Source: a virus
Strand: one strand, 5' to 3'
DNA length: 34,060 nucleotides
IMG/VR virus record: IMGVR_UViG_3300033145_000444
Location: 1 to 34,060 of that record
In this document: positions 314-33,044 of the stretch, in pieces
Layout: every line of letters begins with the position of its first letter
How positions within the stretch are numbered: the first letter of the stretch is position 1
The notes under the pieces: generated by a model
What the model saw: the letters and a program-made list of their open reading frames with translations, nothing else
What the model was told of the DNA's origin: nothing
The model's database searches: none
Program-made: the position numbers and the translations under genes

Positions 314-405
314 AAAAATGGGAAAGAATAATAACGTGGGCAGAATTAGTAATCTTTTTAATCGGACTTTATAGTATAATTATGTTTATAGAAAAACTAT
401 GCTAA
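310..405 (+). CDS. 31-aa single-pass membrane protein, paralogue of its neighbour
   Basis: The ATG at 310 overlaps the previous stop. The product MKKWERIITWAELVIFLIGL ends with YSIIMFIEKLC. It has a short charged N-terminus and one membrane helix closely similar to that of the preceding gene. It overlaps the start of the downstream glycosyltransferase at 399. The compact coupling supports translation, but the function is unknown. Confidence 0.5.
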   Translation: MKKWERIITWAELVIFLIGLYSIIMFIEKLC

Positions 406-1216
406 GTATTTGTATCCCCAGCAGAAATGAGATATTTCTTAATAATACAATAAGAGATGTCTTGAAGAACGCCACGGGCAAGATAGAGATATTTCCTATT
501 TTAGACGGATATGAACCAGATGAATATGTAGATGATTATAGAGTTCACTACATTCATTTTAAGCACGGATTAGGCAAGAGACAGGGGATAAACGCTATGG
601 TAGCTGTCACGCCCATTGTATGGTAGCCAAAGGATTTGATGAACAGCTTATTAAAGACCACCAACCTAATTGGGTTCAAGTTCCAAGACGACACAGATTA
701 GACGCAGAGAATTGGTGCTTACAAAAACAAGTAGATAATAGACCACCAATAGATTATGAGTATATTATGTATCCTGATAAGTTTCCTGCCAAAGGATATT
801 TAGCTGGGTTCCACGGATATAAATGGGACGCTAGAAGTAAAGAAAGAAAAGACATACCAATAGATGATATTATTACTTTTCAGGGGTCAGCTTGGTTTAT
901 GACAAAGGAATGGTTCAAGAAATGTGGGTTTATGGATTACAAGTATCAGGCTTGGGGTCAAGAAGCAGAAGAGATTAGCTTTACCACTTGGGAGAACGGA
1001 GGCAGGGTAGTAGTCAATAAGAACACTTGGTATGCCCATCTTCACAAGGGTCAAAAGTATGGAAGAATGTATTTTCTTAATAAAGAGATGACTAGAAAGA
1101 GTTATGATTATTGTTATAGGAGGTGGAGTAATAGTCCAACACTTCACAATTTAATTAAAAAGTTTATGCCTATGCCAGGCTGGAAAAATGGAGACTTTAG
1201 AATATCTAAAAAGTAA
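399..1216 (+). pseudogene. Broken polypeptide GalNAc-transferase-like glycosyltransferase
   Basis: Two ORFs, 399-626 and 620-1216, together make one GT-A fold glycosyltransferase homologous to the intact gene at 1763-3331. The first carries the nucleotide-binding start (LSICIPSRNEIF, LDGYEPDE, GLGKRQGIN). The second begins at HAHCMVAKGFDE, matching the DAHC metal-site region, and contains WGQEAEEISFTTWENGG, which resembles the WGGEN...WQCGG motif of GT27 polypeptide GalNAc-transferases. Compared with the intact paralogue, about nine residues before the HAHC motif are missing and the frame shifts near 600-618. The DxH motif has become HAH. ATG 620 overlaps the stop TAG, so a separate C-terminal half could be translated by restart. 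A 9-bp repeat (TATGGTAGC at 596 and 619) flanks the break. It could be a real null allele, a phase-off state or an assembly error. Confidence 0.7.
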
Positions 1217-1766
1217 ATATGGAGAGGGGAACCCTCAAACTATACCAAAGAGCAGGTGGAAAGAATTACCTATACTATTTAATGAACTAGGATTTAAGGT
1301 TGGGGTAGAAGTAGGAGTTCTTAAAGGAAAGTTCACAAAGTGTTTGTGTAAATCAGGGTTAAAAGTATATGGAATAGACCCTTGGGTAGATTATTATAAA
1401 GATTACGAGGGTATGGACTATAGTGTTTTTGAGAGAGAAGCCAGAGAACGAGTCAAGCCCTATGATTGTACCCTTATAAAGAAATGGAGTTCTGAAGCTG
1501 TAAAAGATTTTGAAGATGAAAGTTTAGACTTTGTATTTATAGATGGTAACCACGCCCTAGAATATGTGATAGAAGATATAGCCAAATGGAGTAAGAAAGT
1601 TAGAAAAGGAGGGATAATATCAGGACACGATTATTTCAGGGGTAAAGGTAAAAACCTAATGCACGTTAAAGATGCTGTAAATACTTGGACTTATGTTTAT
1701 AAAATTAATCCTTGGTACATTTTGAAAGGTGATAAATGTCCCACTTGGTTCTGGGTAAATATATGA
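1188..1766 (+). CDS. Class I SAM-dependent methyltransferase (Methyltransf_24 type)
   Basis: This 192-aa protein fits a Rossmann methyltransferase. Motif I is VGVEVGVLKGKFTKCL at about residues 38-53, and the acidic end of strand 2 is YGIDPW at about 61-66. The motif DFVFIDGNHALEYVIEDI at about 113-130 is typical of the Methyltransf_24 family, which often modifies sugars or natural products. It overlaps the preceding broken glycosyltransferase by 29 bases and the following one by four (ATGA at 1763-1766). The context implies methylation of a glycan built by these enzymes. The substrate cannot be read from sequence. Confidence 0.8.
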   Translation: METLEYLKSKYGEGNPQTIPKSRWKELPILFNELGFKVGVEVGVLKGKFTKCLCKSGLKVYGIDPWVDYYKDYEGMDYSVFEREARERVKPYDCTLIKKWSSEAVKDFEDESLDFVFIDGNHALEYVIEDIAKWSKKVRKGGIISGHDYFRGKGKNLMHVKDAVNTWTYVYKINPWYILKGDKCPTWFWVNI

Positions 1767-3331
1767 AATATAAATTATCAATAATTATACCTGCCAGAAA
1801 CGAGATATTCGTTGGGCAGACGGTTAAAGACCTATTGGAAAATATTGAGGGGGATACAGAAGTAATAGTTGTTTTAGATGGCTATACTATCCCAGTGCCA
1901 GAAATACCCAAAGATGATAGAGTAAGAATAATAGAAAACAAAGAAGCCCTAGGACAAAGGGGTGCCACAAACCAAGCTGTTAGGACATCTAAGGCTAAAT
2001 ATATAATGAAGGTAGATGCCCATTGTTCTTTTGACAAGGGATTTGATGTTAAGATGATGAAAGATATGAACGACAACTGGACTATGGTGCCTGTTATGAG
2101 AAACCTACACGCCTTTGATTGGGTTTGTAAGTGTGGACATAGGGAATATCAAGGTAAGTCCCACCCTTGTCCTAAATGTGGGAAAGAGATGAAAAGAGAG
2201 ATAGTCTGGGTAGGAAAGACTAACCCCCAAAGCACATCATTCAGATTTGATAATACCTTACATTTTCAGTATTGGAGGGAATATAAAAAGAAACAGATAG
2301 GGGATTTAGTAGAAACAATGAGTATTCAAGGTTCTTGCTTTATGCTTACAAGAGATAAGTATTGGGAATTAGATATATGTGATGAGGGACACGGAAGCTG
2401 GGGTCAACAAGGCGTAGAAGTTGCCTGTAAAACTTGGCTATCAGGAGGTAGAGTAATTGTTAATAAAAAGACTTGGTATGCCCATATGTTTAGAACCCAA
2501 GGAGGGGACTTTGGATTTCCTTACCCCAATCCTGGGGTTAATAAAGCCAGAGAGTATTCAAGGAACTTATGGATAAATGGGAATTGGGATAAAGCTATTC
2601 ACCCCTTAAGTTGGTTAATAAAGAAGTTTAACCCCCCTGGCTGGGATAAATCAGTAGGGATAATCTACTATACGGATAGTGGGATAGACCCTAAACTGAT
2701 GAAGATAGTTCAAGACCAGATTAAGGTTGGGGCAGGTCAGAATAGAATAGTTAGTATTTCACTTAATAAGAAGATAGATTTTGGGACAACCCGAATAAAT
2801 ATGAAAGGTGAAAGGGGTAGCTTAATGTTATTCAAGCAGGTTCTTAAAGGATTAGAAGCCTTAGATACAGACATAGTATTCTTTTGTGAACACGATGTTC
2901 TTTATCACCCTTCGCACTTTGACTTTATCCCCCCAGACAAAGACACTTACTATTACAATGGGAACTTATGGCGGTTAAGATTGAAAGATGGTTTTGCAGT
3001 AAAGTATGACCATAAGTCTTTATCCCAGTTATGTGCTAACAGGGAAACCTTGCTTAAAGAGTTTAGGTTTAGGGTAGAAGATGTAGAAAAGAATGGCTTT
3101 CATCGGGGAGGTTATGAACCAGGAACAAGAAGTATAAGAAGAGGAGGTTTCAGTGATAGCAGGTCAGAGTTCTTCTATTCCAAAGAGCCGAATATAGATA
3201 TCAGACACGAAGATAACTTCACTAAAAGTAAATGGAAACCAGAAGATTTTAGAAGTCAAAGAAGTTGTCGGAATTGGGAAAATGGAAAGCTAGACGATTT
3301 ATGGGCTAAAGATTTATTAAAAGATTTTTAA
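1763..3331 (+). CDS. Two-domain glycosyltransferase with GT27-like N-terminal domain and zinc ribbon
   Basis: ATG 1763 is preferred over 1736 because it overlaps the upstream stop as ATGA and gives the canonical start MKYKLSIIIPARNE. Residues 1-285 form a GT-A domain with DGY near 39-41, the metal motif DAHC at 85-88, WGQQGVEVACKTW near 213-225, GGRVIVNKKTWYAH near 228-241. The DxH plus WGxE/WxxGG pattern is that of polypeptide GalNAc-transferases. A four-Cys zinc ribbon (C122, C124, C136, C139) is inserted between them. Residues 290-522 look like a second glycosyltransferase domain, with an acidic FFCEHDVLYHPSHF motif in place of DxD. It likely transfers a sugar to a protein or glycan; the neighbouring Ser-rich tail protein is an obvious candidate acceptor (inference). 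Confidence 0.75.
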   Translation: MKYKLSIIIPARNEIFVGQTVKDLLENIEGDTEVIVVLDGYTIPVPEIPKDDRVRIIENKEALGQRGATNQAVRTSKAKYIMKVDAHCSFDKGFDVKMMKDMNDNWTMVPVMRNLHAFDWVCKCGHREYQGKSHPCPKCGKEMKREIVWVGKTNPQSTSFRFDNTLHFQYWREYKKKQIGDLVETMSIQGSCFMLTRDKYWELDICDEGHGSWGQQGVEVACKTWLSGGRVIVNKKTWYAHMFRTQGGDFGFPYPNPGVNKAREYSRNLWINGNWDKAIHPLSWLIKKFNPPGWDKSVGIIYYTDSGIDPKLMKIVQDQIKVGAGQNRIVSISLNKKIDFGTTRINMKGERGSLMLFKQVLKGLEALDTDIVFFCEHDVLYHPSHFDFIPPDKDTYYYNGNLWRLRLKDGFAVKYDHKSLSQLCANRETLLKEFRFRVEDVEKNGFHRGGYEPGTRSIRRGGFSDSRSEFFYSKEPNIDIRHEDNFTKSKWKPEDFRSQRSCRNWENGKLDDLWAKDLLKDF

Positions 3332-3375
3332 CTAAAAGATTTTTAATTAAAAGATTTTTAATTAAAAGATTTTCA
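3316..3375 (+). repeat. Four 15-bp tandem repeats at the 3' end of the glycosyltransferase gene
   Basis: Four copies of the unit ATTAAAAGATTTTTA (variants in copies 2 and 4) lie head to tail at 3316-3330, 3331-3345, 3346-3360 and 3361-3375. The first copy encodes the end of the protein (LKDF-stop). Because the unit is a multiple of three, the following copies repeat LKDF-stop in frame. Each unit is nearly self-complementary (TTAAAA/TTTTAA), so the RNA could form small A/U hairpins. Confidence 0.9.
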
Positions 3376-3380
3376 ATAAA

Positions 3381-4775
3381 ATGAGTGAACCACTAGAAAA
3401 ACTTAATAATACTACTTACCGAAAGGTAGCTAATGATAACCCGAAAGACAGGTTAGAAATTGAAATTGGAGATATTAAACAAGAGGATTTTCACCCACAG
3501 ATAAAACTAAAAAGATGGGATAATGAATGTAATTTTTCAGTTCGTTTACTAGATAATGAAGTAGGTGAAGCTACCTTTAAGAAAGACCACGAGAAAGTTA
3601 ATTGGAAAAAGGGCAACATAGAAGTAAACTTCTTTGAAATAGATAATGCTTTCAAGTTTGACTATATAATAAAGAAGAAGCCCAAAACTAATAAACTTCA
3701 ATTTTCAATTCAAAGTAAAGATGTAGTTTTCTATTATCAGCCACCCTTGACCCAGAAAGAAATAGACGAGGGTTGTTCAAGACCAGAAAATGTAGTAGGA
3801 AGTTATGCTGTTTATCACTCCACAAAAGGTGGAATGAATGATATAAACGGTAAGGAATATAAGTGTGGAAAAATAGGACATATATTTAGACCTCATTTAT
3901 ACGATAGCAATGGATTAGAAACTTGGGCTGACCTACACATAGAAAATGGGTTATACGAAGTAACTATCCCACAGGACTTTTATGATAACGCTGTTTATCC
4001 GATTAGGAGTAATGATACTTTTGGATATGAAACGGCAGGAGAGTCAAACAGGAGTAGTTCTTCCAATGCTATTCATGGGACAGAGTATTCATTAAGTCAA
4101 GACGGAATCGTTACAAAAATAACAGCTCATGTTGAGGAGAGGGCTTCTCCAGACGGATTTGAACTTGGCTTATATGACAGTGGAACCAATAAAGGATATA
4201 CCGTAGAGGGACACCTATGGGATAGCAAGTATTGGCGTGAATTAAATATTGATAGTGGTGGCTCTCTAACGGCTGGAACAATTAGACTATGTTTACAAGC
4301 TGAAAGTGGGTTTAATTGGAGTTATGATGACCTCAATCCAGGTTCTCTCATTTCTGCTTATTCAGTGGAAACTTATGGAATATGGCCAAATACAACATTT
4401 GTAGATACTTGGGATTTTAATTTTTCCATCTACGCCACCTATACACCATCAGCAGCAGGGAGTAGTTCTGAATCACCCTCTCAATCACCCTCAAGTTCAG
4501 CTAGTCCATCTAATAGTCCTAGCAATAGTCCTAGCGAGTCACCCAGTTTAAGCCCTAGTAGTTCAGATTCACCAAGCGAGAGTCCTAGTGATTCACCTAG
4601 TTTAAGTCCTAGTTCAAGCGATAGTCCGTCAGAGTCTAGTAGCGAATCACCAAGTCAAAGCCCTTCTTCGTCTGAAAGTCCTAGCGAGTCCTCTAGCGAT
4701 AGTCCATCAGAATCACCCAGTTTGAGTCCATCTTCATCTGAATCTCCATCAGAGAGTTCGAGTAGAGTCGCCTAG
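3381..4775 (+). CDS. Tail appendage protein with mucin-like Ser/Pro/Glu-rich C-terminus (frame-disrupted)
   Basis: The intact part encodes 464 residues. Residues 1-350 form a globular, beta-rich region (for example VVFYYQPPLTQKEIDEG, LETWADLHIENGLYEVTIPQ and later jelly-roll-like strands). From about residue 363 it becomes a low-complexity chain of SPS/SES/SSS blocks such as SPSSSDSPSESPSDSP. An extra A at 4764 shifts the frame and gives an early stop at 4773-4775. The Ser-rich coding continues downstream in other frames to 5344. The same tail design recurs in the genes at 30787 and 32022, so this is a virion appendage family. The Ser-rich stalk could be an O-glycosylation substrate for the enzymes just upstream (inference). 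Confidence 0.7.
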   Translation: MSEPLEKLNNTTYRKVANDNPKDRLEIEIGDIKQEDFHPQIKLKRWDNECNFSVRLLDNEVGEATFKKDHEKVNWKKGNIEVNFFEIDNAFKFDYIIKKKPKTNKLQFSIQSKDVVFYYQPPLTQKEIDEGCSRPENVVGSYAVYHSTKGGMNDINGKEYKCGKIGHIFRPHLYDSNGLETWADLHIENGLYEVTIPQDFYDNAVYPIRSNDTFGYETAGESNRSSSSNAIHGTEYSLSQDGIVTKITAHVEERASPDGFELGLYDSGTNKGYTVEGHLWDSKYWRELNIDSGGSLTAGTIRLCLQAESGFNWSYDDLNPGSLISAYSVETYGIWPNTTFVDTWDFNFSIYATYTPSAAGSSSESPSQSPSSSASPSNSPSNSPSESPSLSPSSSDSPSESPSDSPSLSPSSSDSPSESSSESPSQSPSSSESPSESSSDSPSESPSLSPSSSESPSESSSRVA

Positions 4776-5344
4776 TGAAAGTAGCAGTGACTCCCCATCA
4801 TTATCTCCATCTAGTAGTGAAAGTCCATCAGAAAGTTCTTCAGATTCACCCAGTCAGAGTCCATCTAGTAGCGAAAGTCCTAGTGAATCATCTAGCGACT
4901 CTCCTAGTCAATCACCAAGTAGCAGTGACTCGCCAAGTGAGAGTAGCTCTGATTCTCCTAGTTTAAGCCCTAGTAGTTCAGATTCACCATCAGAGTTCAC
5001 CATCAGAGTCACCCAGCGAAAGTCCAAGCCAAAGTCCTAGTAGTAGTGAAAGTCCTTCAGAGTCAAGTTCTGAATCACCAAGTGAGAGTAGTAGTTTATC
5101 ACCCAGTTCATCAGAAAGTCCTAGCTTATCACCGAGCAGTTCAGATAGTCCGAGTCAATCTCCTAGCTCTAGCGACAGCCCTTCACTTAGTCCGAGTTCA
5201 TCTAATTCGCCATCTGAATCTAGCAGCAATAGTCCTTCGCTATCACCATCTAGTTCGGAGTCAGCTTCGGCTAGTCCGTCAGTAGCCCCATACGAGGGGA
5301 GAATAAAGGTCTGGGACGGAAGTGCTTGGGATATAATAATATAA
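4765..5344 (+). pseudogene. Displaced remainder of the Ser-rich appendage gene
   Basis: After the +1 shift at 4764 the SPSESSSDSP pattern continues uninterrupted in the next frame to about 4995. There a perfect 13-bp tandem duplication (4983-4995 and 4996-5008) moves the coding into the third frame. That frame continues to a sensible end, with ASASPSVAPYEGRIKVWDGS and then AWDIII before TAA at 5342-5344. The other two appendage genes end with comparable short Trp-containing tails, so the original protein probably spanned 3381-5344. Short ORFs in this stretch in other frames are repeat shadows. Confidence 0.7.
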
Positions 5345-13079: not shown

Positions 13080-13292
13080 ATGTTTCTAATTAACACCACA
13101 AATATAATTTACAAGTCTGGGTCTAGTTCTAGGTCTGGGTCTGGGTCTAGTTCTGGGTCTAGGTCTAGGTCTTGGTCTGGGTCTGGGTCTTGGTCTGGGT
13201 CTGGGTCTGGGTTTTGGTCTTGGTCTAGGTCTAGGTCTAGGTCTTGGTCTAGGTCTGGGTCTAGGTCTGGGTCTTGGTTAAATGGTAAATAA
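13080..13292 (+). CDS. Repeat ORF 1: MFLINTTNI-(S-x)n-LNGK
   Basis: The ORF starts two bases after the previous stop. It encodes MFLINTTNIIYKSGSS, then a Ser-Gly/Arg/Trp dipeptide chain made by the DNA hexamer TCTGGG/TCTAGG/TCTTGG, and ends SGSWLNGK. Two relatives lie at 13641 and 13736 with the same ends and different repeat numbers. The repeat changes almost only the first base of alternate codons. Whether it is translated is uncertain; the conserved ends argue for a real cassette. Confidence 0.5.
   Translation: MFLINTTNIIYKSGSSSRSGSGSSSGSRSRSWSGSGSWSGSGSGFWSWSRSRSRSWSRSGSRSGSWLNGK
13115..13278 (+). repeat. GGTCTN hexamer repeat, block 1
   Basis: Tandem GGTCTG, GGTCTA and GGTCTT units, with occasional GTTCTG, run for about 160 bases. 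The + strand has many GGG and GG runs at regular spacing, so G-quadruplex formation is possible. The opposite strand also has a long ORF (PD-LD repeats), an artefact of the repeat. Confidence 0.85.
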
Positions 13293-13735: not shown

Positions 13736-14014
13736 ATGTTTCTAATTAACACCATAAATATATATTGGTCGTATGTGAATAACTCTGGGTCTGGGTCTAG
13801 GTCTAACTCTTGGTCTAACTCTAGGTCTGGGTCTAGGTCTTGGTCTTGGTCTAGTTCTGGGTTTGGGTCTTGGACTTGGTCTTGGACTTGGTCTTGGTCT
13901 GGGTCTAGGTCTAGTTCTAGTTCTGGGTCTTGGTCTAGTTCTAGTTCTGGGTCTAGGTCTGGGTCTTGGTTAAATGGTAAATACGAGGGTAAAATGCAGA
14001 AAGATAACGATTGA
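13736..14014 (+). CDS. Repeat ORF 3: long copy with read-through end
   Basis: The ORF begins MFLINTINIYWSYVNNSGSG, has the longest S-x repeat (with Asn and Thr variants), and reaches SGSWLNGK. Here TAA is replaced by TAC, so it reads on to KYEGKMQKDND before stopping at 14014. The repeat tract lies at about 13785-13968. Confidence 0.45.
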   Translation: MFLINTINIYWSYVNNSGSGSRSNSWSNSRSGSRSWSWSSSGFGSWTWSWTWSWSGSRSSSSSGSWSSSSSGSRSGSWLNGKYEGKMQKDND

Positions 14015-18680: not shown

Positions 18681-19082
18681 ATGAAAGGAACACTTAAACA
18701 AAAAAAGGCGATAAAGATAACAAAAGAGATGCTGGAAGGGAAGAGAGATATGATGCCTCTAAAGGAGGTTATGCTTGAAGCTGGATTTTCTAAGACTACT
18801 TCTCGTGTTCCGAAAAAGTTAACTAGCACAAAAACTTGGGAAAGGTTTATGGAAAGTATAGATGAAAAACCAATTATCAAGTTATGGAAGAACCTAGCTA
18901 CCTTAAAACCTATTTCTTACAAAGGAATTGATGGTGAGAAAGAGAAGGTCCAAATCAAAGATATGAGAGTTATTATGCAGGCAGGGGAGAATATAATGAA
19001 ACTTAAAGGAAGATTTAAAGAAGTTTTAGATGTAGGATTATATCGTAAAAGAGAGGAGTTGTTTGATGAAGAAGATAAATGA
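18681..19082 (+). CDS. Terminase small subunit (putative)
   Basis: The 133-aa protein precedes and overlaps the large terminase. Its N-terminal part contains a helix-turn-helix-like PLKEVMLEAGFSKTTSRVPK, followed by a helical oligomerisation region and a charged tail (REELFDEEDK). Small terminases recognise the packaging site and regulate the motor. Identification rests on position, size and the HTH rather than a strong motif. Confidence 0.7.
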   Translation: MKGTLKQKKAIKITKEMLEGKRDMMPLKEVMLEAGFSKTTSRVPKKLTSTKTWERFMESIDEKPIIKLWKNLATLKPISYKGIDGEKEKVQIKDMRVIMQAGENIMKLKGRFKEVLDVGLYRKREELFDEEDK

Positions 19083-20349
19083 CGCCAAATTTCAAGAGAG
19101 AATAGGCTGGGTTCCCCACAAAGGACAGGCAGAAGTAATCGCCAGTCCAGCTAGAGATAAAACAATATGTGCTGGAGTGAGATGGGGTAAAAGTCAAGTA
19201 GCAGCCTATGAAGTAGCCAAAGAGCTGATGTACCCGAATAAAAGGATTTGGATTGTTAGTTTAAGCTATGATATGGCTAAAATGGTATTTAACCATTTAG
19301 TAGATTTTCTGGGACATTATGATAGGTCATTACTAAAAAAAGTTTCCTTTAGACCTCCACAGAAGTTAGTGATAAAAGAATGGAACTCGTGGGTTGAATG
19401 TAAATCATCAGGAGAGCCAGAAAGTTTGATGGGACAGGAGTTAGACCTTTGTATTATAGACGAAGCAGCCAGAACATCAGGTGATGTCTGGGATAGATAT
19501 TTAGCTGCTCGTTTAAGTACTAGACAAGGCAGAAGCATCGCTATTTCTACTCCCTTTGGTCAGACTAACTGGTTTTATAAAAGATATATTGAGACAAAAG
19601 AAACTAATAGTAGTTGGCATTTTAATACTTTAAACAACCCTTATTTTAAAAAGGAAGAATGGGATAGATTAAAAAAGAATACTCCAGAGATGATTTTTAA
19701 ACAGGAGTATGAGGCAGAATTTTTAAGAGACGCAGCTTCTGTCTTTAGAGGAATAAGTCAGATAATTGGAGATACTTTGAGAAAACCAGAAAGTGGACAT
19801 TATTATGTTATGGGAGTGGACTTAGGAAAACACAACGACTCCTCGGTAATAACGGTGATAGATACTTCAACTAATAATGTAGTTCATCACGATGATTTCC
19901 TAGGGATAGAATATCCATTACAGAAAGCTAGAATAATCGCTACGGCTAGAGAATACAATACAGCTAGAGTGTGTATAGATGCTACTCACGGGTCAGTAGG
20001 TGAACCAATCGCTGCCGACCTAACCAGAGAAGGGTTATTCGTAGAAGATTTTGGCTTTAGTGGAAAGTCAAAAAAGGAGTTGATAGAAAAGTTAAGTATA
20101 TTTATAGAGCAAGGTTTTATTAAAATACCAAAGGTAGAAAAGCTAATAGATGAATTAAATATCTTTGGGTATAAACTTACGGATTCTGGAAATATTGTAT
20201 ACTCTGCTCCGCCAGGTGCTCACGATGATATGGTGATGAGCTTGGCTCTAGCAGTTTGGAGTTTAAATCCAGGTAAACCAAAAATAGTAGATTTAATTAC
20301 TAAAGAACTAGCTAAAAATAAAGTAAAACTACATAAATCTTTTATATAA
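19066..20349 (+). CDS. terL: Terminase large subunit
   Basis: ATG 19066 has a GAGAGGAG SD and is preferred to TTG 19063. The 427-aa protein shows the ATPase motor: Walker A GVRWGKSQ (37-44), Walker B LDLCIIDEAAR (about 127-137), coupling motif ISTPFGQTNW. The RNase H-like nuclease follows: VMGVDLGKHNDSS (first Asp), VCIDATHG (second), GAHDDMVMSLALAVW (third). It packages DNA into proheads using ATP and cuts the concatemer. It overlaps the small subunit by 17 bases. Confidence 0.93.
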   Translation: MKKINDAKFQERIGWVPHKGQAEVIASPARDKTICAGVRWGKSQVAAYEVAKELMYPNKRIWIVSLSYDMAKMVFNHLVDFLGHYDRSLLKKVSFRPPQKLVIKEWNSWVECKSSGEPESLMGQELDLCIIDEAARTSGDVWDRYLAARLSTRQGRSIAISTPFGQTNWFYKRYIETKETNSSWHFNTLNNPYFKKEEWDRLKKNTPEMIFKQEYEAEFLRDAASVFRGISQIIGDTLRKPESGHYYVMGVDLGKHNDSSVITVIDTSTNNVVHHDDFLGIEYPLQKARIIATAREYNTARVCIDATHGSVGEPIAADLTREGLFVEDFGFSGKSKKELIEKLSIFIEQGFIKIPKVEKLIDELNIFGYKLTDSGNIVYSAPPGAHDDMVMSLALAVWSLNPGKPKIVDLITKELAKNKVKLHKSFI

Positions 20350-23763: not shown

Positions 23764-23828
23764 TAGATGTCGTCTTATCAGGCTATAGCGGCGAACTTAG
23801 CCTGATAGGCGCCGCAAGAGGACATTTA
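23764..23828 (+). promoter_or_regulatory. Structured RNA with conflicting stems between capsid gene and glycan cassette
   Basis: Stem 1: TATCAGGCTA (23776-23785) with TAGCCTGATA (23798-23807), ten pairs. Stem 2: GCGGCG (23788-23793, in the loop of stem 1) with CGCCGC (23810-23815). Closing stem: TAGATGTC (23764-23771) with GACATTTA (23821-23828). Stems 1 and 2 form a pseudoknot or exclude each other. The SD AAGAGGA (23816-23822) for ATG 23828 lies next to stem 2 and partly in the closing stem. Confidence 0.6.
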
Positions 23829-24724
23829 TGAAGATTACATATTTCGGAAATTTTAAGAATAAAATACCAACGATAGATGAGGATATACTTTACTCCCTAA
23901 AAAAGGGAAATGAAGTAAAGAGCTTTGACCTTAGGGACTTTGACGATAAGAAGATGTTGAAGATAATTAAGGCTGCTAACGAAAGTGATTTATTCCTATT
24001 TCACGGGACAATAGCTGATATGGACGATTTCACGATGAGCTTAATACTTCAACGGATAACAGTTCTGTTAGATGCTATTAAGTGTAAGAAAGTGATGTGG
24101 TTCCTTGATAAAGTAGTTGGGACAAAGGTAAAGATTATTATGAGTTTAGTTGATAAGTTAGATTATATCTTTGTTTCAGATGATACTTGGTTAAGAAGAT
24201 TTGAGTCAGATAAGATATTTCCACTTCACCCTGGCTGTTCTGAAAAGCCAATTAAAGGGAGGTTTAAGAAAGAGTTGGAATGTGATATTGCTTTTGCTGG
24301 TTCATTGTATGGAGAAAGGGTTGGAATGTATGAGTTCCTTAAAAAGACCTTTGGAGAAAGGTTTAAGATGTTTGATGATAAGTATGGGAAAGATTATGCT
24401 GACTTATGTAAATCAGCCAAAGTAATCATTGTTCCCCAGCATCCGTTTGATGATTTCTTCTGGTCAGATAGGATTTATACCACTATGAAAAATGGTGGAG
24501 TAGTAGTTCATCCAAGAACCCAGGGGATAATTGAAGAAGGGTTTGAAGAAGGAAAGCATTACTTTAATTACTATTCCGAGTCAGAGCTTTATGCAACTCT
24601 TAAAATGCTTATTTCAAAAGAGAACAAAGGTCTAAGGAAAATGATTGGTGCTGAAAGCCAATACTTCGTTAATAAACACTTCACTTATTCTGATAGGATA
24701 GATGAGATGTTAAAGAAAATATGA
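23828..24724 (+). CDS. Glycosyltransferase (GT-B, CgeB-like)
   Basis: The 298-aa protein begins MKITYFGNFKNKIPTIDEDI. It carries VMWFLDKVVG and YIFVSDDTWLRRF in the N-domain. The C-domain has CDIAFAGSLYGERVGMYEFL, VIIVPQHPFDDFFWSDRIYT, GGVVVHPRTQGIIEEGFEEG and HYFNYYSESELYATLKMLI, the spacing of CgeB/Glyco_trans_1_2 enzymes. It opens the second glycosylation module. Donor and acceptor are unknown. Confidence 0.8.
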   Translation: MKITYFGNFKNKIPTIDEDILYSLKKGNEVKSFDLRDFDDKKMLKIIKAANESDLFLFHGTIADMDDFTMSLILQRITVLLDAIKCKKVMWFLDKVVGTKVKIIMSLVDKLDYIFVSDDTWLRRFESDKIFPLHPGCSEKPIKGRFKKELECDIAFAGSLYGERVGMYEFLKKTFGERFKMFDDKYGKDYADLCKSAKVIIVPQHPFDDFFWSDRIYTTMKNGGVVVHPRTQGIIEEGFEEGKHYFNYYSESELYATLKMLISKENKGLRKMIGAESQYFVNKHFTYSDRIDEMLKKI

Positions 24725-25554
24725 AGCTCCGTGTATCCAGCTCGGTGAAGCATTTCAAGGAAAGAGCAGAGAAAACCTGGGGGTTAGAAGAATGGTTAGG
24801 AATAGATGACCCAGATAAAGAATTATTATTCTTTGGGCTATTCCACGAAAGGGACTGGGAGGTCTTTGACAATTATGATGGAGAAAGGTCTGTATTCTGG
24901 TGTGGTTCTGATATTTTAAGGGCTAATGAAGATTATGAAAGACAAAGGATACTAAGAAACCATTTAGATACGAAGCATTATTGTGAGAATGAAACAGAAG
25001 CTAAAAACCTTAAGACCTTAGCAATAAACCCAATAGTAATTCCCTCTTTTTTAGACAGCTTTGATAAATATCCAGTTAGTTTTGAACCACCAAAAGATGG
25101 GAAATGGAAGTTCTGGTTGTGTGGACACCCAAAAAGGGAAGAAGAATATGGTTTCTTAATAGCTAAAAGAATGGCTAATCAATTCCCAGATATAGAGTTC
25201 CATTTTTACGGGGTAGATAAACCAGAGTTTGAACAACTTCCAAATATCTTTTATCACGGATATGTTAAAGAAGAGGTGTTGAACGAGGAGATTAAAAACT
25301 ATCACGCAGGATTTAGACCAAATAATCACGACGGAGTATCGGAGGTGATGATTAAATCACTTCTTCTAGGTCAATATCCAATTACAAGAATAAAATATGA
25401 TGATGTCTGGAATTACAATAGTGAACCAGAACTAATTGATTGTATAAACAAGTTGAAAGAACAAACGAAGCCAAATCTTCAAGCTAGATGTTCTTGGATT
25501 AAAAAATTGAATCAATATCCTTTTGTAAAAAATAGACCTATATTTATTCGGTAA
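24721..25554 (+). CDS. Glycosyltransferase with C-terminus replaced by a homing-gene insertion
   Basis: Coupled by ATGA at 24721. The 277-aa protein has a GT-B pattern: SVFWCGSDIL, FWLCGHPKREEEYG, FHFYGVDKPEFEQLPN, FYHGYVKEEVLNEEIKNYHA, GFRPNNHDGVSEVMIKSLLL, typical of GT4 acceptor/donor loops. The last residues after KKLNQYP (FVKNRPIFIR) come from the inserted element. The ancestral ending (KKLNQYPWCHRNYIK) is now found at the end of the HNH gene. The enzyme may well remain active. Confidence 0.75.
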   Translation: MKLRVSSSVKHFKERAEKTWGLEEWLGIDDPDKELLFFGLFHERDWEVFDNYDGERSVFWCGSDILRANEDYERQRILRNHLDTKHYCENETEAKNLKTLAINPIVIPSFLDSFDKYPVSFEPPKDGKWKFWLCGHPKREEEYGFLIAKRMANQFPDIEFHFYGVDKPEFEQLPNIFYHGYVKEEVLNEEIKNYHAGFRPNNHDGVSEVMIKSLLLGQYPITRIKYDDVWNYNSEPELIDCINKLKEQTKPNLQARCSWIKKLNQYPFVKNRPIFIR

Positions 25555-26112: not shown

Positions 26113-26140
26113 CTGGTGTCATCGTAATTACATAAAATGA
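25562..26140 (+). CDS. HNH homing endonuclease with NUMOD3 motifs
   Basis: The 192-aa protein has a basic N-terminus, two NUMOD3-type motifs (LSKEHRKKLSLAKVG near 47-61 and HTEESKLKISKAQKGK near 71-86) that bind DNA, then the HNH core: FARDNWTCQICGQRGEELNP, HHIKQFAYYP, FAIDNGITLCVKCHKDYH. The two Cys pairs hold zinc, and the HH and N residues are catalytic. The last 15 residues are the displaced end of the interrupted glycosyltransferase. Such enzymes spread by cutting alleles that lack the insertion. Confidence 0.88.
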   Translation: MIKRDKMGRFIKGTYPIKPFNGRERVGTKLKLWHIEILRKTWLGKKLSKEHRKKLSLAKVGYVPWIKGRNHTEESKLKISKAQKGKPKKRLNINELKTDESKLWRNRIEYRLWREAVFARDNWTCQICGQRGEELNPHHIKQFAYYPKLRFAIDNGITLCVKCHKDYHRKYGIKKGQKKLNQYPWCHRNYIK

Positions 26141-26925
26141 AATATAAAATAGGAATAATTGGAACTGGAATGGTAGGTGGAGCTTTAAAAAGGTACTTTA
26201 AAAAGAAGAAATATAAATTATATACTTATGATATAAATGGTGAGGGAAGCATTAAGGAAGTTAACAAAGCAGACTTTATTTATATCTGTGTCCCAACACC
26301 ATATAGAGAGGGAATAGGTTGTGATATGACAGAAGTTGGGAAAGCCATTTCACAAATAGAAGGGGAAAAAGTGATTATTATTAAATCAACAATAACCCCA
26401 GGAACAACTGAGAAGATACAATCTCAATTTCCAAAACATAAGATATTGTTTAATCCAGAATTCTTGACAGAAGAAACAGCAGATGCAGACATTGAGTTTC
26501 CTGATAGGCAAATAGTAGGATTTACTATTGAAAGTTATAATGTTGCTTCGCACATATTGAAACAGCTTCCATTGGCTACTTATGAAGCAATAGTTCCAGC
26601 GTTTATAGCAGAGTTCATCAAATATGCTGCCAATACTTGGTTCTCGGTGAAAGTAACTAAGAACAATGAACTTTATGACATTTTCAAGAAGTATGGAGGG
26701 TCGGATAAGGAGTTTGAAGCAATGATTGATGGATTATCAGCTGATAAGAGGATAGGAAGAACCCATTTAGAAGTATGGCATAAAGGATACAGGGGCTATG
26801 ATGGTAAGTGTCTCCCAAAAGATACAAAAGCATTTATAGATTTTGCCAAGAAGATGAAAGTTAAAACACCACTTATGAGTGCCAGTGATAAATACAATGA
26901 AAAGATTAGAAAAGAAAAACCTTAA
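26137..26925 (+). CDS. Nucleotide-sugar dehydrogenase (UDP-glucose/GDP-mannose family), short form
   Basis: The 262-aa protein has the NAD site IGIIGTGMVGGALKRYF (5-21), then CVPTPYREG, IIKSTITPGTTEKI, LFNPEFLTEETADADIEFPD, the central helix AEFIKYAANTWFSVKVTKNN, and GYDGKCLPKDTKAF with the catalytic Cys. The family oxidises UDP-glucose, UDP-ManNAc or GDP-mannose to the uronic acid. Usual length is about 430 residues; the C-terminal UDP-binding domain is missing. Short phage versions of this kind are known in glycan cassettes, but activity on a normal donor is uncertain. Confidence 0.82.
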   Translation: MKYKIGIIGTGMVGGALKRYFKKKKYKLYTYDINGEGSIKEVNKADFIYICVPTPYREGIGCDMTEVGKAISQIEGEKVIIIKSTITPGTTEKIQSQFPKHKILFNPEFLTEETADADIEFPDRQIVGFTIESYNVASHILKQLPLATYEAIVPAFIAEFIKYAANTWFSVKVTKNNELYDIFKKYGGSDKEFEAMIDGLSADKRIGRTHLEVWHKGYRGYDGKCLPKDTKAFIDFAKKMKVKTPLMSASDKYNEKIRKEKP

Positions 26926-27454
26926 TACTAGGAAGTATTATAACAAGGTTCTTCTGAACCATTTCAACAATACTGGGTTAGATGTCACTGATATGTGGAG
27001 AATAGAATGGTTGCTAGGAAGATGGAAAGGTGGAAAGTTATTAGATATTGGGTGTGGAATATCTCCATTACCAATAATCGCAGCTTCTAAAGGTGAAGTA
27101 TGGGCTATGGATTTTTCTGATGAGTTGATAGAAAGACTAAGACTTGGAACAAATAGGGTAAAATATATCACAGGTGATATGAATAAATTACCCTTTGATG
27201 ATAAGTATTTTGATTATGTAGTTCTTGGCGAGGTTCTTGAACATTCAGAAAACCCAAAAAGGGTTATAAGTGAAGCAGAAAGAGTATTAAAAGATAATGG
27301 GATAATAGCAGTGTCTTGTCCAAATGAGGAAAAAGAACATATCTATAAACAACATATCTGGAGTATCTCAAGAAAGGATATAGAGAATATGTTGAATGTT
27401 ACAGAATTAGATATAAAAAGTAATAACATACTTTGTTATGCTAAAAAGAAATGA
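26897..27454 (+). CDS. Class I SAM methyltransferase
   Basis: ATG 26897 is preferred to GTG 26879. It overlaps the dehydrogenase by 29 bases. The 185-aa product shows LLDIGCGISPLPIIAAS (motif I), VWAMDFSDELIERL, TGDMNKLPFDDKYFDYVVLG and EVLEHSENPKRVISEAERVL (Methyltransf_11 signature). It probably methylates a sugar or lipid of the same pathway. Confidence 0.82.
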   Translation: MKRLEKKNLNTRKYYNKVLLNHFNNTGLDVTDMWRIEWLLGRWKGGKLLDIGCGISPLPIIAASKGEVWAMDFSDELIERLRLGTNRVKYITGDMNKLPFDDKYFDYVVLGEVLEHSENPKRVISEAERVLKDNGIIAVSCPNEEKEHIYKQHIWSISRKDIENMLNVTELDIKSNNILCYAKKK

Positions 27455-28077
27455 GTATATTTACAGAAGAATTAAGAGAATGTAAAAAGATAGTTGCCAA
27501 AGACTTAGTTGGAAAGGACTTTAAAAGTGTTTTAGAAGTTGGAACCCAGTGGGGTGAAAGTTTAAAAGCAATAGGAAACTTATTCAAAGATAAGAAGTTA
27601 GTAGGAGTAGATACTGATAAGGTAGTAATCTTTTCTAACAAGTTTAACCTAGATTTAAAGATGGGAAACGTTCTAGGGTTGAAGTTTCCAGATAATAGCT
27701 TTGATGTTGTATTCACAAATGCCCTATTCTGTAATTTAAGTCCTGATGCGATAAATCAAGGGTTAGATGAAATAGTGAGGGTAGCTAATAAATATGTTTA
27801 CCTTGTAGAGTTAGAACTTCCCAAAAAAGGATATTGTAATGGAGGAAGAACTGGAGCTAATTGGAAAGAGTTGCTAGAAAAAAAAGGGTTAAAGGTTGAG
27901 TCAAGAAAAATAACTAAAGAAGAATGGCCAGTAGAGCCTTGGCTAACATATGGTCATCTTTATAAAGCAATATGGAAGCAAAAGTCATCTTCTCAATCCC
28001 ATTTACTGGAAAAACACCCTGTGCTGATACTTCAGGAGACGGATTCAACGGTCAAGAATGGTATGGACACAGACTAA
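27451..28077 (+). CDS. SAM-dependent methyltransferase, long overlap with the next gene
   Basis: Coupled by ATGA. The product has FKSVLEVGTQWGESLKAIGN (motif I), KLVGVDTDKVV, MGNVLGLKFPDNSFDVVFTN and NLSPDAINQGLDEIVRVANK. The natural end looks like YGHLYKAIW; the following 35 residues are read over the start of the next gene (106-base overlap) and look unstructured. A small indel that removed the original stop could explain this. Confidence 0.75.
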   Translation: MSIFTEELRECKKIVAKDLVGKDFKSVLEVGTQWGESLKAIGNLFKDKKLVGVDTDKVVIFSNKFNLDLKMGNVLGLKFPDNSFDVVFTNALFCNLSPDAINQGLDEIVRVANKYVYLVELELPKKGYCNGGRTGANWKELLEKKGLKVESRKITKEEWPVEPWLTYGHLYKAIWKQKSSSQSHLLEKHPVLILQETDSTVKNGMDTD

Positions 28078-28748
28078 AGATTTTCAAATCCTACACGATA
28101 AAGAGTTTAGCCAACCAAACTGACAAAGATTTCCTGTTATGGGTTCAATTTAGACCAGAAGAAAAAGATAATCCAATAACCAAAGAAATAGAACAAGCGA
28201 TTAAAGAATCTGGGATAAAATATGTTTTAACTTTTAATGGTGTTATAATGAGAGAAGATAAAGCAGTATGGCATAATGATAATTTGATAGAAAGAGCAGA
28301 AAAGTCCCTTAAGCAGTTAGGGGAAATAAAAGAAAAGTATGTGATAGAGATAGGTTTAGATTCAGATGATATGGTCATAGATAACTTTGTGGAGTTTGTT
28401 AGAGGTAAGAAGTTTAGGAAAGCATTTTATATGAGAGGAGGGTTCATCTTGTCAACAGAAGATAGATTATCAGAATGGTACAACCCAAGAAGTATGTCAA
28501 TCTATACGATTAACTATCCAACCAAGACATTCTTAAATGCTAAAAAGCACTTTAAGTATCAAAATGGGATAGATAGCCACGAACAAATACCAGACTTGTT
28601 AAATGCTGAATTGTTACCAGATGGAATGTTTTGTTCGGTAACCCACGGAATGAATATCTCAACAATCTGGGAACATCCGTTTAGAGAACAAGAGATTTAT
28701 AATGAAACAAGTAAATTACAAATAATAAATAGATTCAAAACAAAATGA
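27972..28748 (+). CDS. Glycosyltransferase, rhamnosyltransferase-like
   Basis: The 258-aa product has IFSIPFTGKTPC, HRLKIFKSYTIKSLANQTDK, DFLLWVQFRPEEKDN, VIEIGLDSDDMVIDNFVEFV and GGFILSTEDRLSEWYNPRSM. The R..F..YT..SL..QT...F pattern and the LDSDD metal motif match the putative rhamnosyltransferase family (GT-A). It overlaps the methyltransferase by 106 bases and the next gene by ATGA. Confidence 0.78.
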   Translation: MEAKVIFSIPFTGKTPCADTSGDGFNGQEWYGHRLKIFKSYTIKSLANQTDKDFLLWVQFRPEEKDNPITKEIEQAIKESGIKYVLTFNGVIMREDKAVWHNDNLIERAEKSLKQLGEIKEKYVIEIGLDSDDMVIDNFVEFVRGKKFRKAFYMRGGFILSTEDRLSEWYNPRSMSIYTINYPTKTFLNAKKHFKYQNGIDSHEQIPDLLNAELLPDGMFCSVTHGMNISTIWEHPFREQEIYNETSKLQIINRFKTK

Positions 28749-29455
28749 TTCGCCAAAAAAACGTATTTATTAATGTTCTTAATCAAGGAGTAATAGCCAC
28801 AGGGCTAGTTCAAGTAATAACTAATTTAATCCAGCAAGACGCATATCGGATAGGTTTAGATTTTCCAAATGGGAAACCAATCACAAATAATAGAAATAAT
28901 ATAGTTCAGAAGTTTTTAGCCAAGAAGGAATATGATTATCTGATGATGATAGATTCAGATATAGTTCCACCACCAAATATTTTAAAATTACTAGATTATC
29001 AGAAAGATATTATTGCCCCAGTTATGTTTGCACTTCAAAAGGGTGAAGTAAGACCATTATACTTAAAGATGGCAAAAGACGGGATATACGAGATACCAAA
29101 AGAGTTTATGAAAAAAACAGGACTACAAGAAGTAGATGCCACTGGAACAGGTTGTATCGTCATATCAAGAAAAGTTTTAGAAAAGATAAAGCATCCATTT
29201 GAAAACATTTATGATGTTGATGGAATAAAGAAATGGGGAAACGATTTTAACTTCTGTAAAAACGCTAAGGAAGAAGGATTTAATGTCTTTGTACACTTAG
29301 ACTTTATTTCTTCCCACATAACCAATATGGATTTAAAAGACATTTATTATACTGTATTACATAAGGCTAAAGCAGAAGATGAATTATATAAATTAAAGAA
29401 ATACTTTGATAAAAAGCCGAAACTACTAGAATCAATATTAAGTTCGCCAGAATAA
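28745..29455 (+). CDS. GT-A glycosyltransferase
   Basis: The 236-aa product shows FINVLNQGVIATGLVQVITN, NRNNIVQKFLAKKEYDYLMM, then MIDSDIVPPPNILKLL, the metal motif, and TGTGCIVISRKVLEKIKHPF, KKWGNDFNFCKNAKEEGFNV (WG.DF.FC). The pattern is common among phage-encoded glycosyltransferases. It ends the second glycan module. The sequence after its stop already belongs to the connector-like frame. Confidence 0.78.
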   Translation: MIRQKNVFINVLNQGVIATGLVQVITNLIQQDAYRIGLDFPNGKPITNNRNNIVQKFLAKKEYDYLMMIDSDIVPPPNILKLLDYQKDIIAPVMFALQKGEVRPLYLKMAKDGIYEIPKEFMKKTGLQEVDATGTGCIVISRKVLEKIKHPFENIYDVDGIKKWGNDFNFCKNAKEEGFNVFVHLDFISSHITNMDLKDIYYTVLHKAKAEDELYKLKKYFDKKPKLLESILSSPE

Positions 29456-30207: not shown

Positions 30208-30624
30208 ATGAAAATTGTCTTTATTCAAGGTTCGTTTGACATACTGAACGCAGGACACGTAAAAGCTCTCAAAAGAGCCAGAAAACTAGGCGACAAGCTT
30301 ATTGTTGCCCTTAACACAGATGAGCTTTACACAGCATACAAGAACAATCTCGGACCAATCATTCCTTTCAAGCAAAGAAAAACCATTCTTAAATCCGTTA
30401 GATGGGTTGATGAAGTTGTTCCAATAGGAACATTCAGCCCAATTAGGGAACTTAAGAAATACAAGGTTGATGTCTATGTTTTGACTAAGGAATGGTTAAA
30501 GACCAAAGAGAAAGAGCTCGCCTATATGAGCAAGAAAGGGGGTCAAATAAGTTGGAGTCCTAGATTCAAAGGACAAATGTGTTCTTCTGACATTAGGAAA
30601 AGAATTAGAGAAAGGGACAAATAA
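30208..30624 (+). CDS. Cytidylyltransferase-like nucleotidyltransferase
   Basis: An AGGAG SD precedes ATG 30208. The 138-aa product has IQGSFDILNAGHVKALKRAR (5-24), the HxGH-type site with Asn in place of the first His (NAGH), RKTILKSVRWVDEVVPIG, and a final SSDIRKRIRERDK in place of the usual ISTTxIxxR. It belongs to the TagD/RfaE-C/HldE family that makes CDP- or ADP-linked precursors. Codon use is clearly richer in C-ending codons than in neighbouring genes, which suggests recent acquisition. Substrate unknown. Confidence 0.8.
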   Translation: MKIVFIQGSFDILNAGHVKALKRARKLGDKLIVALNTDELYTAYKNNLGPIIPFKQRKTILKSVRWVDEVVPIGTFSPIRELKKYKVDVYVLTKEWLKTKEKELAYMSKKGGQISWSPRFKGQMCSSDIRKRIRERDK

Positions 30625-30786: not shown

Positions 30787-31707
30787 ATGTTAAAAGTAGA
30801 AACAAAACAAAAATGTTTAAATACTGATAGAGCGGTAGTCAAAGGAAAAGTATTAGCAGAAATACCAGCTCCTTTTATAAATGGAAGATACCACTTCCAC
30901 CTTTCTAGGTTTTTAATGATGAATGGGTCAACCACTGATGTCTTTCATTCTAAACCCGTTTATTACCATACGAAAGAAAAAGAAACTAGACCATTAGATG
31001 AAATATGTATTTGGGCAGGAAATAAGAATATCCTTCTTAAAAAGAACCCCTTTGACCTAGACATCAACTTTGGTTATTTAAGCTGGCTAATGAGGCGTCA
31101 GACGCTTCTAGGGGGGTTTCTAAAGTGGAATGGACTGCCTCAATATATTGCCTTAAACGCTGTGGATACATCTTATCCAGACCCTCACCCTGAAACTACT
31201 ACTGTTGATGGGGTTGTTGCCGAAGGCTCGCAATCACTTAATTGGTGGAGTTGGTCAGGTCTTGTTAACAATAGTGGTGATTATGGAGGTGATGATTATG
31301 CCGAAGATGATTGTATTAGAATATTCGCTAATACTGGAGATGGGACAGATGATTGGAGGTCGTTAATCAGAAGTATATTCTTATTTGATACTTCAGGGAT
31401 AGGAGGTAGTAGTATGATTGATAGTGCTGTATTCTCTGTTTATGGAACAGAAAAGGGTGATGGTTTGAGTATCACTCCTGATATAAATGTTTATTCTTCT
31501 AACCCCACCTCAAATACTGCTTTAGATGCTGATGATTATAGCACCCTTGGTTCAACTGCTTTTTCAACTGCTATCACTTATGCTAATTATAGTGTAACTG
31601 GATATATGATGCTGCTAACAATGAACCTAGTTGGACAGCGAATGTTTATTCAAACTTTAGATGTTATTTTGCTGAACAAACAGGGACAGATAACGACCCT
31701 AAATTAG
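30787..31707 (+). CDS. Tail appendage protein, frameshifted before its Ser-rich end
   Basis: The product begins MLKVETKQKCLNTDRAVVKG and has a globular domain followed by a beta-rich, DNRLRE-like region (SLNWWSWSGLVNNSGDYGGD, SIFLFDTSGIGGSSMIDSAV, FSVYGTEKGDGLSITPDINV). An extra AT near 31614-31617 shifts the frame, and the product ends with unrelated residues at 31707. In the +2 frame the protein continues YDAANNEPSWTANVYSNFRC, then FAEQTGTDNDPKLVVNYSAS and a Ser-rich tail to 32018. Confidence 0.65.
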   Translation: MLKVETKQKCLNTDRAVVKGKVLAEIPAPFINGRYHFHLSRFLMMNGSTTDVFHSKPVYYHTKEKETRPLDEICIWAGNKNILLKKNPFDLDINFGYLSWLMRRQTLLGGFLKWNGLPQYIALNAVDTSYPDPHPETTTVDGVVAEGSQSLNWWSWSGLVNNSGDYGGDDYAEDDCIRIFANTGDGTDDWRSLIRSIFLFDTSGIGGSSMIDSAVFSVYGTEKGDGLSITPDINVYSSNPTSNTALDADDYSTLGSTAFSTAITYANYSVTGYMMLLTMNLVGQRMFIQTLDVILLNKQGQITTLN

Positions 31708-32018
31708 TAGTCAATTATTCTGCTTCAAGTGAAAGTCCAAGCTTGTCTCCATCTTCTTCGGAAAGTTCATCTGAAAGTCCTAGTTTGTCTCCTAGTTCTA
31801 GTCAAAGCCCTTCTAGTAGTAATTCACCAAGTAATAGTCCTAGTTTAAGTCCTAGTTCTAGTCAAAGCCCTTCTAGTAGCGAGAGTCCTAGTCTATCACC
31901 AAGTTCTTCAGAGAGTCCTAGTGAGAGTGCTTCACCTAGTGCCTCACCAAGTTGGGGTTATGAAGCTAAAAGTACTACTGATTGGGCATATCCAACTAAA
32001 CATACTTATGATGAATAA
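31618..32018 (+). pseudogene. Displaced C-terminus of the 30787 appendage gene
   Basis: Starting at GAT 31618, the shifted frame reads the end of the jelly-roll-like domain, then SASSESPSLSPSSSESSSES repeats and the closing SPSWGYEAKSTTDWAYPTKH block. A TTG at 31743 is the first possible start of a free-standing ORF but has no SD. This segment was almost certainly part of one protein with 30787-31613. Confidence 0.65.
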
Positions 32019-32021
32019 ATT

Positions 32022-33044
32022 ATGGCAATAGCAGTAGACGCAACTTCATCTGGACAGATAACGAGTGCTAATACTACAACAACAGTAGCCCATACTTGTA
32101 GTGGTTCAAATAGGGTTTTAGTAGTAGCTACTGCTTATGTAGATGCTTCGATAGTTTCTGGGGTAAAATATAACAATGTAGCGATGACTAAGGCAGTAGA
32201 AAGGAACGATGGAGATTATTTGAACTGTCAGTTATGGTATCTGGTTAATCCATCAACAGGAGCTAATGATATAGTGGCTACCCATACTGTTACTGGTACA
32301 ATGAAAGTATTTGGGGTTTCCTTTACAGGCGCCAATACTTCTAGTGTTGTTGATGTGACTGGAAATGAAACTAACGGGTCTGGCACAGACCCAAGTCTAG
32401 CAGTAACAACCAATAACGCTAACTCTTACTTAATAGATGTAGTAACTGTAAATGGAACATCAACATTATCCGTTGGTGCAAATCAAACAGCGATAGCAGA
32501 TTTGAATGGAAATAGTCATCAGGCGGCAGCCAGTTATGAAGCTGGCGGTGCTGCTGGAAGCTATACAATGAGCTGGGATATAGTTGAAAGTAGGACTTCT
32601 TCTCATTGTATTTTAGCAATTAAGGAATCAATTGGGAGCAGCTCTGAATCACCAAGCGAATCCTCATCAGAGTCTCCTAGCCAATCTCCGAGTAGCTCTG
32701 AATCACCCTCTGAAAGTAGTTCAGAGAGTCCATCAGAAAGTAGTTCATTATCTCCAAGCTCAAGCGATAGTCCTAGTTTAAGTCCTAGCTCATCAGAAAG
32801 TCCAAGCGAATCTAGTAGCAATTCACCCAGTGAATCGCCTAGTTTATCGCCTAGTTCTTCTGAATCACCAAGCGAATCCTCATCAGAGAGTCCTAGTTTA
32901 TCACCAAGTTCATCTAATTCACCATCAGAAAGTAGTTCAGAGAGTCCATCAGAAAGTGCTAGTCCTAGTGCTTCACCAAGTTTAGAATATCAAACTAAAA
33001 ATGATTCTAATTGGGCTTATCAAACATTACACGGACCATTATGA
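32022..33044 (+). CDS. Intact tail appendage protein with mucin-like C-terminus
   Basis: The 340-aa product has an N-terminal beta-rich domain of about 200 residues (MAIAVDATSSGQITSANTTT, VLVVATAYVDASIVSGVKYN, LWYLVNPSTGANDIVATHTV, VFGVSFTGANTSSVVDVTGN) resembling phage/bacterial adhesin-like repeats. About 115 residues of SPS/SES/SSS repeats follow, then the C-terminal block SPSLEYQTKNDSNWAYQTLH. That block is similar to the end of the 30787 gene. This is the only undamaged member of the family here. Confidence 0.72.
   Translation: MAIAVDATSSGQITSANTTTTVAHTCSGSNRVLVVATAYVDASIVSGVKYNNVAMTKAVERNDGDYLNCQLWYLVNPSTGANDIVATHTVTGTMKVFGVSFTGANTSSVVDVTGNETNGSGTDPSLAVTTNNANSYLIDVVTVNGTSTLSVGANQTAIADLNGNSHQAAASYEAGGAAGSYTMSWDIVESRTSSHCILAIKESIGSSSESPSESSSESPSQSPSSSESPSESSSESPSESSSLSPSSSDSPSLSPSSSESPSESSSNSPSESPSLSPSSSESPSESSSESPSLSPSSSNSPSESSSESPSESASPSASPSLEYQTKNDSNWAYQTLHGPL

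Follow-up and report, generated by a model that had tools for sequence, protein, structure and literature searches.

Polypeptide N-acetylgalactosamine (GalNAc)-transferases of glycosyltransferase family 27 (GT27), the enzymes of eukaryotic mucin-type O-glycosylation, target serines in proline-rich tracts. In bacteria, the serine-rich repeat proteins (SRRPs) of Firmicutes have an alternating-serine form and are glycosylated in the cytosol, and their transferases, GtfA and GtfB, adopt the GT-B fold. The long serine-rich repeats of these proteins are O-glycosylated by SecA2/Y2-associated transferases from the same gene cluster (PMC12355684). Among phages, the capsid and tail-tube C termini of mycobacteriophages are reported to be glycosylated (Freeman 2023, cited in PMC12619734). 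Here we analyzed a 34,060-base virus record (IMG/VR IMGVR_UViG_3300033145_000444; hereafter the window), in which a GT27-like transferase gene at 1763-3331 is followed by a gene at 3381-5344 that encodes a serine-rich repeat (SRR). The window carries terminase and endolysin-type amidase genes and encodes an adaptor-like protein (just below the Pfam cut-off), and it is therefore a tailed phage. Our analyses indicate that it probably encodes a protein O-glycosylation cassette acting on SRR tails of virion proteins.

Like a Firmicutes SRRP locus, the window encodes an alternating-serine repeat protein beside transferases. However, the transferase tested here is GT-A rather than GT-B, and SRRPs are SecA2-exported cell-wall adhesins rather than virion proteins. 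No SecA2 or SecY2 was recognized near the loci we compared, though no dedicated search for them was made, and some chromosomal relatives adjoin TatC rather than SecA2. The likeness to mycobacteriophages lies in phage-encoded transferases and would extend to C-terminal modification of tail tube and capsid (PMC12619734); in the window, terminase and transferase stand on the same record. A sequence-only reading of the window had supposed that a phage-made mucin stalk on the virion would be new; virion glycosylation as such is anticipated by the mycobacteriophage reports. In contrast to the present locus, with its dedicated SRR tail and GT27-like enzyme, the available portion of PMC12619734 describes no long alternating-serine tails, and the hosts here are most likely Patescibacteria, not Mycobacterium.

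Results

The transferase resembles polypeptide GalNAc-transferases

The intact transferase gene (1763-3331, plus strand; alternative start at 1736) encodes a GT27-like GT-A domain (1763-2647) followed by a second GT-A domain (2651-3328), which is a separate gene in some relatives. In searches against solved structures, polypeptide GalNAc-transferases were already the top match with the single sequence and led with the transferase profile (E 4e-11); a profile of the short paralogues (see below) matched them at 7e-12 over residues 4-254. Among the families matched in the profile searches, they alone covered the whole domain. An AlphaFold2 model of the transferase had a mean predicted local distance difference test (pLDDT) score of 89.6, and all 50 of its top 50 PDB fold matches in Foldseek were GalNAc-transferases, with a best E of 7.5e-15. 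The template modeling (TM) scores of these matches were near 0.4, which we attribute to the second domain differing on both sides. When modeled alone, the C-terminal domain (pLDDT 94.0) also showed a GT-A fold, with matches that included glycogenin, chondroitin polymerase and WrtF. The protein, having two GT-A domains, is therefore a double transferase. As the sequence-only reading had proposed, its GT domain is closest to GT27 and is not an unrelated GT2 fold.

Residues D85, A86, H87, W213, G214, E219 and H241 were invariant in an alignment of the intact transferase with 24 relatives. The DxH motif (D85-A86-H87) is present in 70/70 main-type sequences and the metal-binding histidine motif in 66/70; the third metal-binding histidine, GHVFR in T1, is found in AHMFR here (H241). 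The likeness to GT27 thus comprises the fold and profile over the whole GT-A domain, DxH and, in the main type, the metal histidine followed by FR. The enzyme of the phages and Patescibacteria differs from GT27 in that the C-terminal ricin-type lectin domain is absent, with the second GT-A fold in its place, and no signal or membrane anchor was seen. It also differs at the WGGEN motif, which is WGQQG in the intact copy (W213-G214-Q-Q-G-V-E219). Of the motifs first noted in the window, DAHC and TWYAHMFR are present in the intact copy, whereas WGxE reads WGQQ there and its glutamate survives only in the broken copy. Because this catalytic-site glutamate of GT27 is Gln, Met or Phe in the main type, the donor sugar cannot be read from the sequence.

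The broken copy is a second glycosyltransferase paralogue of short form (399-1216, plus strand), carrying a frameshift and a loss of ∼11 residues before DxH. Most related loci have intact homologues of it, and many short paralogues, like the broken copy (WGQEAEE), keep the WGxE glutamate. The two transferase genes had been described as adjacent; both are present, but a methyltransferase gene (Methyltransf_24, E 1.7e-16; 1188-1766, plus strand) lies between them. Its product is likely a sugar O-methyltransferase. The gene is a conserved member of the cluster, found in 57 of the related loci.

Alternating serine is maintained at the protein level

The gene at 3381-5344 (plus strand) encodes an N-terminal domain of a putative tail appendage (3381-4442), an SRR with serine at each second residue (4447-5285) and a short C-terminal tail (5286-5344). 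The repeat is present as originally described, but the gene is not one open frame: two 1-nt indels divide the repeat among three successive frames (4447-4755, about 4770-4992 and 4996-5285). Two further SRR genes lie on the same strand. The first (30787-32018) encodes an N-terminal domain and an SRR (31740-31960), with a frameshift near 31600, and the second (32022-33044) has an N-terminal domain weakly like minor tail proteins (phrog_2106, E 0.004). The two glycosyltransferase genes, the downstream Ser/Pro/Glu repeat and the two additional repeat genes were thus all found where the sequence-only reading had placed them.

In the four longest SRR segments of the window, which include all three of the 3381-5344 gene, 98-100% of the residues in one register are serine; the figure is 86% in the fifth, where the scanned stretch extends beyond the repeat. 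The residues outside this register are predominantly P, A, S, V, I, L and E. The AGY and TCN serine codons are more than one step apart, and the two classes are used roughly equally in the window SRR; over 64 related repeats, the AGY share is 0.33, the expectation for six equally used codons. This mixture indicates that serine itself is selected at the protein level. A DNA-level tandem repeat as the source of the pattern was ruled out by the mixed codons and by Tandem Repeats Finder, which detected only minor arrays in the SRR regions. Related SRR repeats reach about 2,400 residues, and no signal peptide was visible in the SRR proteins inspected. Several long SRR proteins (L039, L044, L056 and L060) have the same C-terminal ending, a motif of the approximate form IKTVNGx(5)IKxVNGL. 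Two short Ser-rich open reading frames of the window (SGSRSWSG; 13080-13292 and 13736-14014) arise from an imperfect GTCTRG hexamer array and, in contrast to the SRR genes, seem to be a repeat at the DNA level. Read on the opposite strand, the 13080-13292 frame would encode an Asp-rich repeat.

SRR tags close virion proteins of related phages

The strongest evidence for display on virions came from a scan of the parts preceding the repeat in SRR-tagged proteins of related phages. Four match the tail protein family phrog_290, and the three of these scanned with Pfam match the tail-tube family Phage_tube_2 (PF18906; E 1.7e-25, 2.3e-40 and 3.1e-14). A further protein is similar to a major tail protein (E 2.9e-10). 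Two others belong with a capsid structural family (best E 1.8e-25); of these, one was scanned with Pfam and also gave a weak phage cement match. In each of these proteins the repeat follows the folded domain directly and forms the end of the chain. Because the proteins that carry the tags at their ends are bona fide tail-tube and capsid-cement proteins, the SRR is located on the virions of these relatives. The enzyme is present in the records of three of the tagged proteins (L028, L115 and L119) and was not found in those of L135, L165 and L085, which are contigs of 13-15 kb. The three SRR proteins of the window itself are placed on the virion by neighborhood and weak matches only, and their SRR would be the acceptor.

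Enzyme and repeat are linked from both sides

Relatives of the enzyme were collected as 34 loci from viral contigs and 43 from genome contigs. SRR genes were found within the fetched flanks of 29/34 viral and 26/43 genome loci, typically as the next gene downstream. When at least 3 kb of downstream sequence was available, an SRR gene started within 2 kb, often within a few bases, in 11/16 viral and 13/27 genome loci, and 15 of the 19 genome loci that extend 8 kb or more downstream have an SRR. Among the four that lack one, L076 has a Ser/Thr-Pro repeat whose densest stretch is 86% S, T and P; in L046, a gene that begins like the SRR protein of L072 is cut by the locus end. Ser/Thr-Pro repeats (SSTPSATPS) adjoin the enzyme in two loci outside the main set, L076 (12715-14226; a Myxococcales bin) and the viral locus L025 (9392-10870), which has no SRR. 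These two cases suggest that the conserved feature may be the hydroxyl residue and not serine alone.

For a test from the substrate side, in which the enzyme had no part in the choice, viral contigs were selected solely on SRR codon patterns, and the complete records were afterward searched for the enzyme. The second codon pattern mostly matched DNA that does not encode an SRR, and those records served as background. Among records of at least 20 kb, in a tally read by hand from the tables, the enzyme was present in 26/29 with an SRR and in 1/55 without a recognized SRR (p = 2.7e-17, a value that overstates independence, as the linked records are interrelated and many come from related hosts). 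The sole enzyme-bearing control, L159, carries a short SRR. The co-occurrence expected from the window was therefore seen in 26 of the long SRR records and not in the other three, two of which have other sugar-pathway genes. Of the outcomes that would have refuted the sequence-only reading, an unrelated GT2 fold or Ser-rich genes without such a transferase, neither was thus fully observed. Together, fold and profile matches, co-occurrence and virion tags in relatives strongly support the proposed pairing of a GT27-type enzyme with a Ser-rich substrate.

Enzyme and repeat are also absent together. The only viral relative found of the window's tail N-terminal domain (L318, 39% identity) has no SRR in the 21 kb fetched and no transferase in its 32.8-kb record. 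Terminase and capsid relatives likewise lack both enzyme and SRR, many of those records being short; mapping the phage through terminase or capsid was set aside, since the cassette does not track the backbone. The window widely shares only the transferases and the methyltransferase with the enzyme-bearing loci, and not the terminase, portal or tail domains. The cassette therefore moves between phage backbones. Viral and genome transferase domains are interleaved in a quick tree of 167 domains, which requires no fewer than 23 label changes along branches with good support. Among INPHARED isolate phages, a tblastn search with the enzyme as the sole query gave a single weak match, so that this collection offers no cultured model. 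In a phage record without a GT27-like enzyme (L451:6832-7770), radical-SAM-like and transferase-like genes adjoin the SRR genes.

The cluster is carried by Patescibacteria chromosomes

Enzyme-bearing genome contigs are nearly all from Patescibacteria, and each of ten genomes searched in full contains a single compact cluster. The SPSxS repeats of a closed 916-kb Woesebacteria chromosome are confined to 211-215 kb, beside the cluster at 217-232 kb; further matches in this chromosome were three short Thr-rich or mixed stretches only, located elsewhere. The neighbors of the Woesebacteria cluster are sugar-nucleotide genes, polysaccharide genes and TatC, and this copy is therefore cellular. A prophage origin of all chromosomal copies was rejected, since L069, L072 and L044 sit among ordinary cell genes. 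Thus, the system is not confined to phages. From its cellular carriers we infer a Patescibacteria host for the window phage. The transferase-SRR cluster is flanked by tatC in at least five loci of Patescibacteria (L069:17036-17647, L072:19054-19788, L058:19728-20435, L041:12103-12789 and L078:387-950), and no twin-arginine signal was found in the SRR proteins inspected.

Other genes of the window

The terminase large subunit gene lies at 19063-20349 (Terminase_6N, 2.3e-12; Terminase_6C, 6.5e-10). Further downstream, and like it on the plus strand, are two glycosyltransferase-like genes (23828-25554; the first Glyco_trans_1_2, the second without a Pfam match), a sugar-nucleotide gene of the UDP-glucose/GDP-mannose dehydrogenase family (26137-26925), two methyltransferase genes (26897-28077), rhamnosyltransferase-like and glycosyltransferase-like genes (27972-29455) and a cytidylyltransferase-like gene, possibly for sugar activation (30208-30624). 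The record contains at least four gene-breaking frameshifts (about 600, 4770, 4993 and 31600), which may mean an indel-prone assembly.

Discussion

The data are best explained by a phage-encoded cassette that probably O-glycosylates the SRR tails of virion proteins. The GT27-like domain would start the glycan by transferring a sugar from a nucleotide-sugar donor onto SRR serine hydroxyls, the same kind of target as that of GT27. Extension and capping would then fall to the second GT-A domain together with further transferases and methyltransferases. The SRR tails would be C-terminal extensions of virion proteins, namely, tail appendages in the window and tail tube and capsid cement in relatives. 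Glycosylation would take place in the host cytosol before virion assembly, as suggested by the lack of a visible signal peptide, and the product would be a virion with dense glycan bristles. Sugar transfer, donor, linkage, glycan structure and function are the parts of this scheme that we infer; the likeliest functions are control of adsorption, mimicry of the host surface or a protective coat. The "mucin stalk" of the sequence-only reading goes beyond this evidence.

Several observations weigh against the cassette. Three of the 29 long SRR records lack the enzyme. One of them, G006, has a different repeat, SSSSW. The other two have a true SRR without a GT27-like enzyme: G020 has a Methyltransf_24 gene and one or more group-1 transferases that pass the cut-off, and G052 carries an epimerase gene. 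The pairing is therefore not absolute, yet these two records are compatible with a different transferase acting. The interrelatedness of the linked records counts on the same side. In addition, the donor-site Glu and Asn of GT27 (WGGEN) are Gln and Gly in the intact copy, which may, from these residues, accept a different sugar or serve in elongation; with both residues changed, GalNAc as the donor, as first proposed, is unsupported. Finally, the first transferase and the SRR tail gene of the window are frameshifted in the present assembly, through either assembly error or real decay.

A broader and more tentative reading is that Patescibacteria and their phages share one mucin-like system. 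It would consist of GT27-like transferases, sugar methyltransferases and alternating-Ser proteins of tens to more than 2,000 residues, and the short SRR tags on virions would give the phage a host-like glycan coat and thereby surface mimicry. We regard this as possible, at clearly less than even chances.

Alternatively, the transferases might modify a host surface polysaccharide, in serotype conversion or superinfection exclusion, and stand near the SRR because both are accessory genes of the tail region. Such enzymes are frequent in phages, additional genes of the window encode glycosyltransferases, a sugar dehydrogenase and methyltransferases, and the chromosomal cluster lies among polysaccharide genes. 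However, no Gtr-type membrane partner genes were seen, the nearest folds target proteins rather than lipid-linked glycans, and the SRR link is also seen from the substrate side and persists in different phage backbones and in chromosomes, which makes this explanation unlikely. It is also quite unlikely that the SRR tails serve without sugars as flexible bristles or spacers and that the transferase hitchhikes with them. Sugar-free disordered Ser/Pro linkers do exist, and the three enzyme-less records would fit such a role, but a spacer needs no serine at alternate residues under codon-saturated selection, SRR loss coincides with enzyme loss, and two of the three exceptions have other sugar-pathway genes. 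Glycosylation of phage DNA bases, for which transferases are known (PMC12619734), is very improbable, given that no base-hypermodification genes were recognized in the window, that the enzyme also occurs in chromosomes beside bacterial SRR genes and that its best folds are protein transferases.

The combination of a GT27-like enzyme, an alternating-serine virion tag and sharing with Patescibacteria appears to be undescribed; we found no prior description of SRR in Patescibacteria or phages in a literature search that did not extend to subscription papers and preprints. If the cassette acts as proposed, mucin-type O-glycosylation would have a counterpart in bacteria and phages that uses a structurally related enzyme. 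The cassette would also provide phages with a modular route by which a short repeat tag adds glycan bristles to tail tubes and capsids. The tag-plus-enzyme pair could become a protein-glycosylation tool and can be tested without culturing the host. Patescibacteria are a huge, mostly uncultured group, and it is on their poorly known surface and phage biology that such a system would bear.

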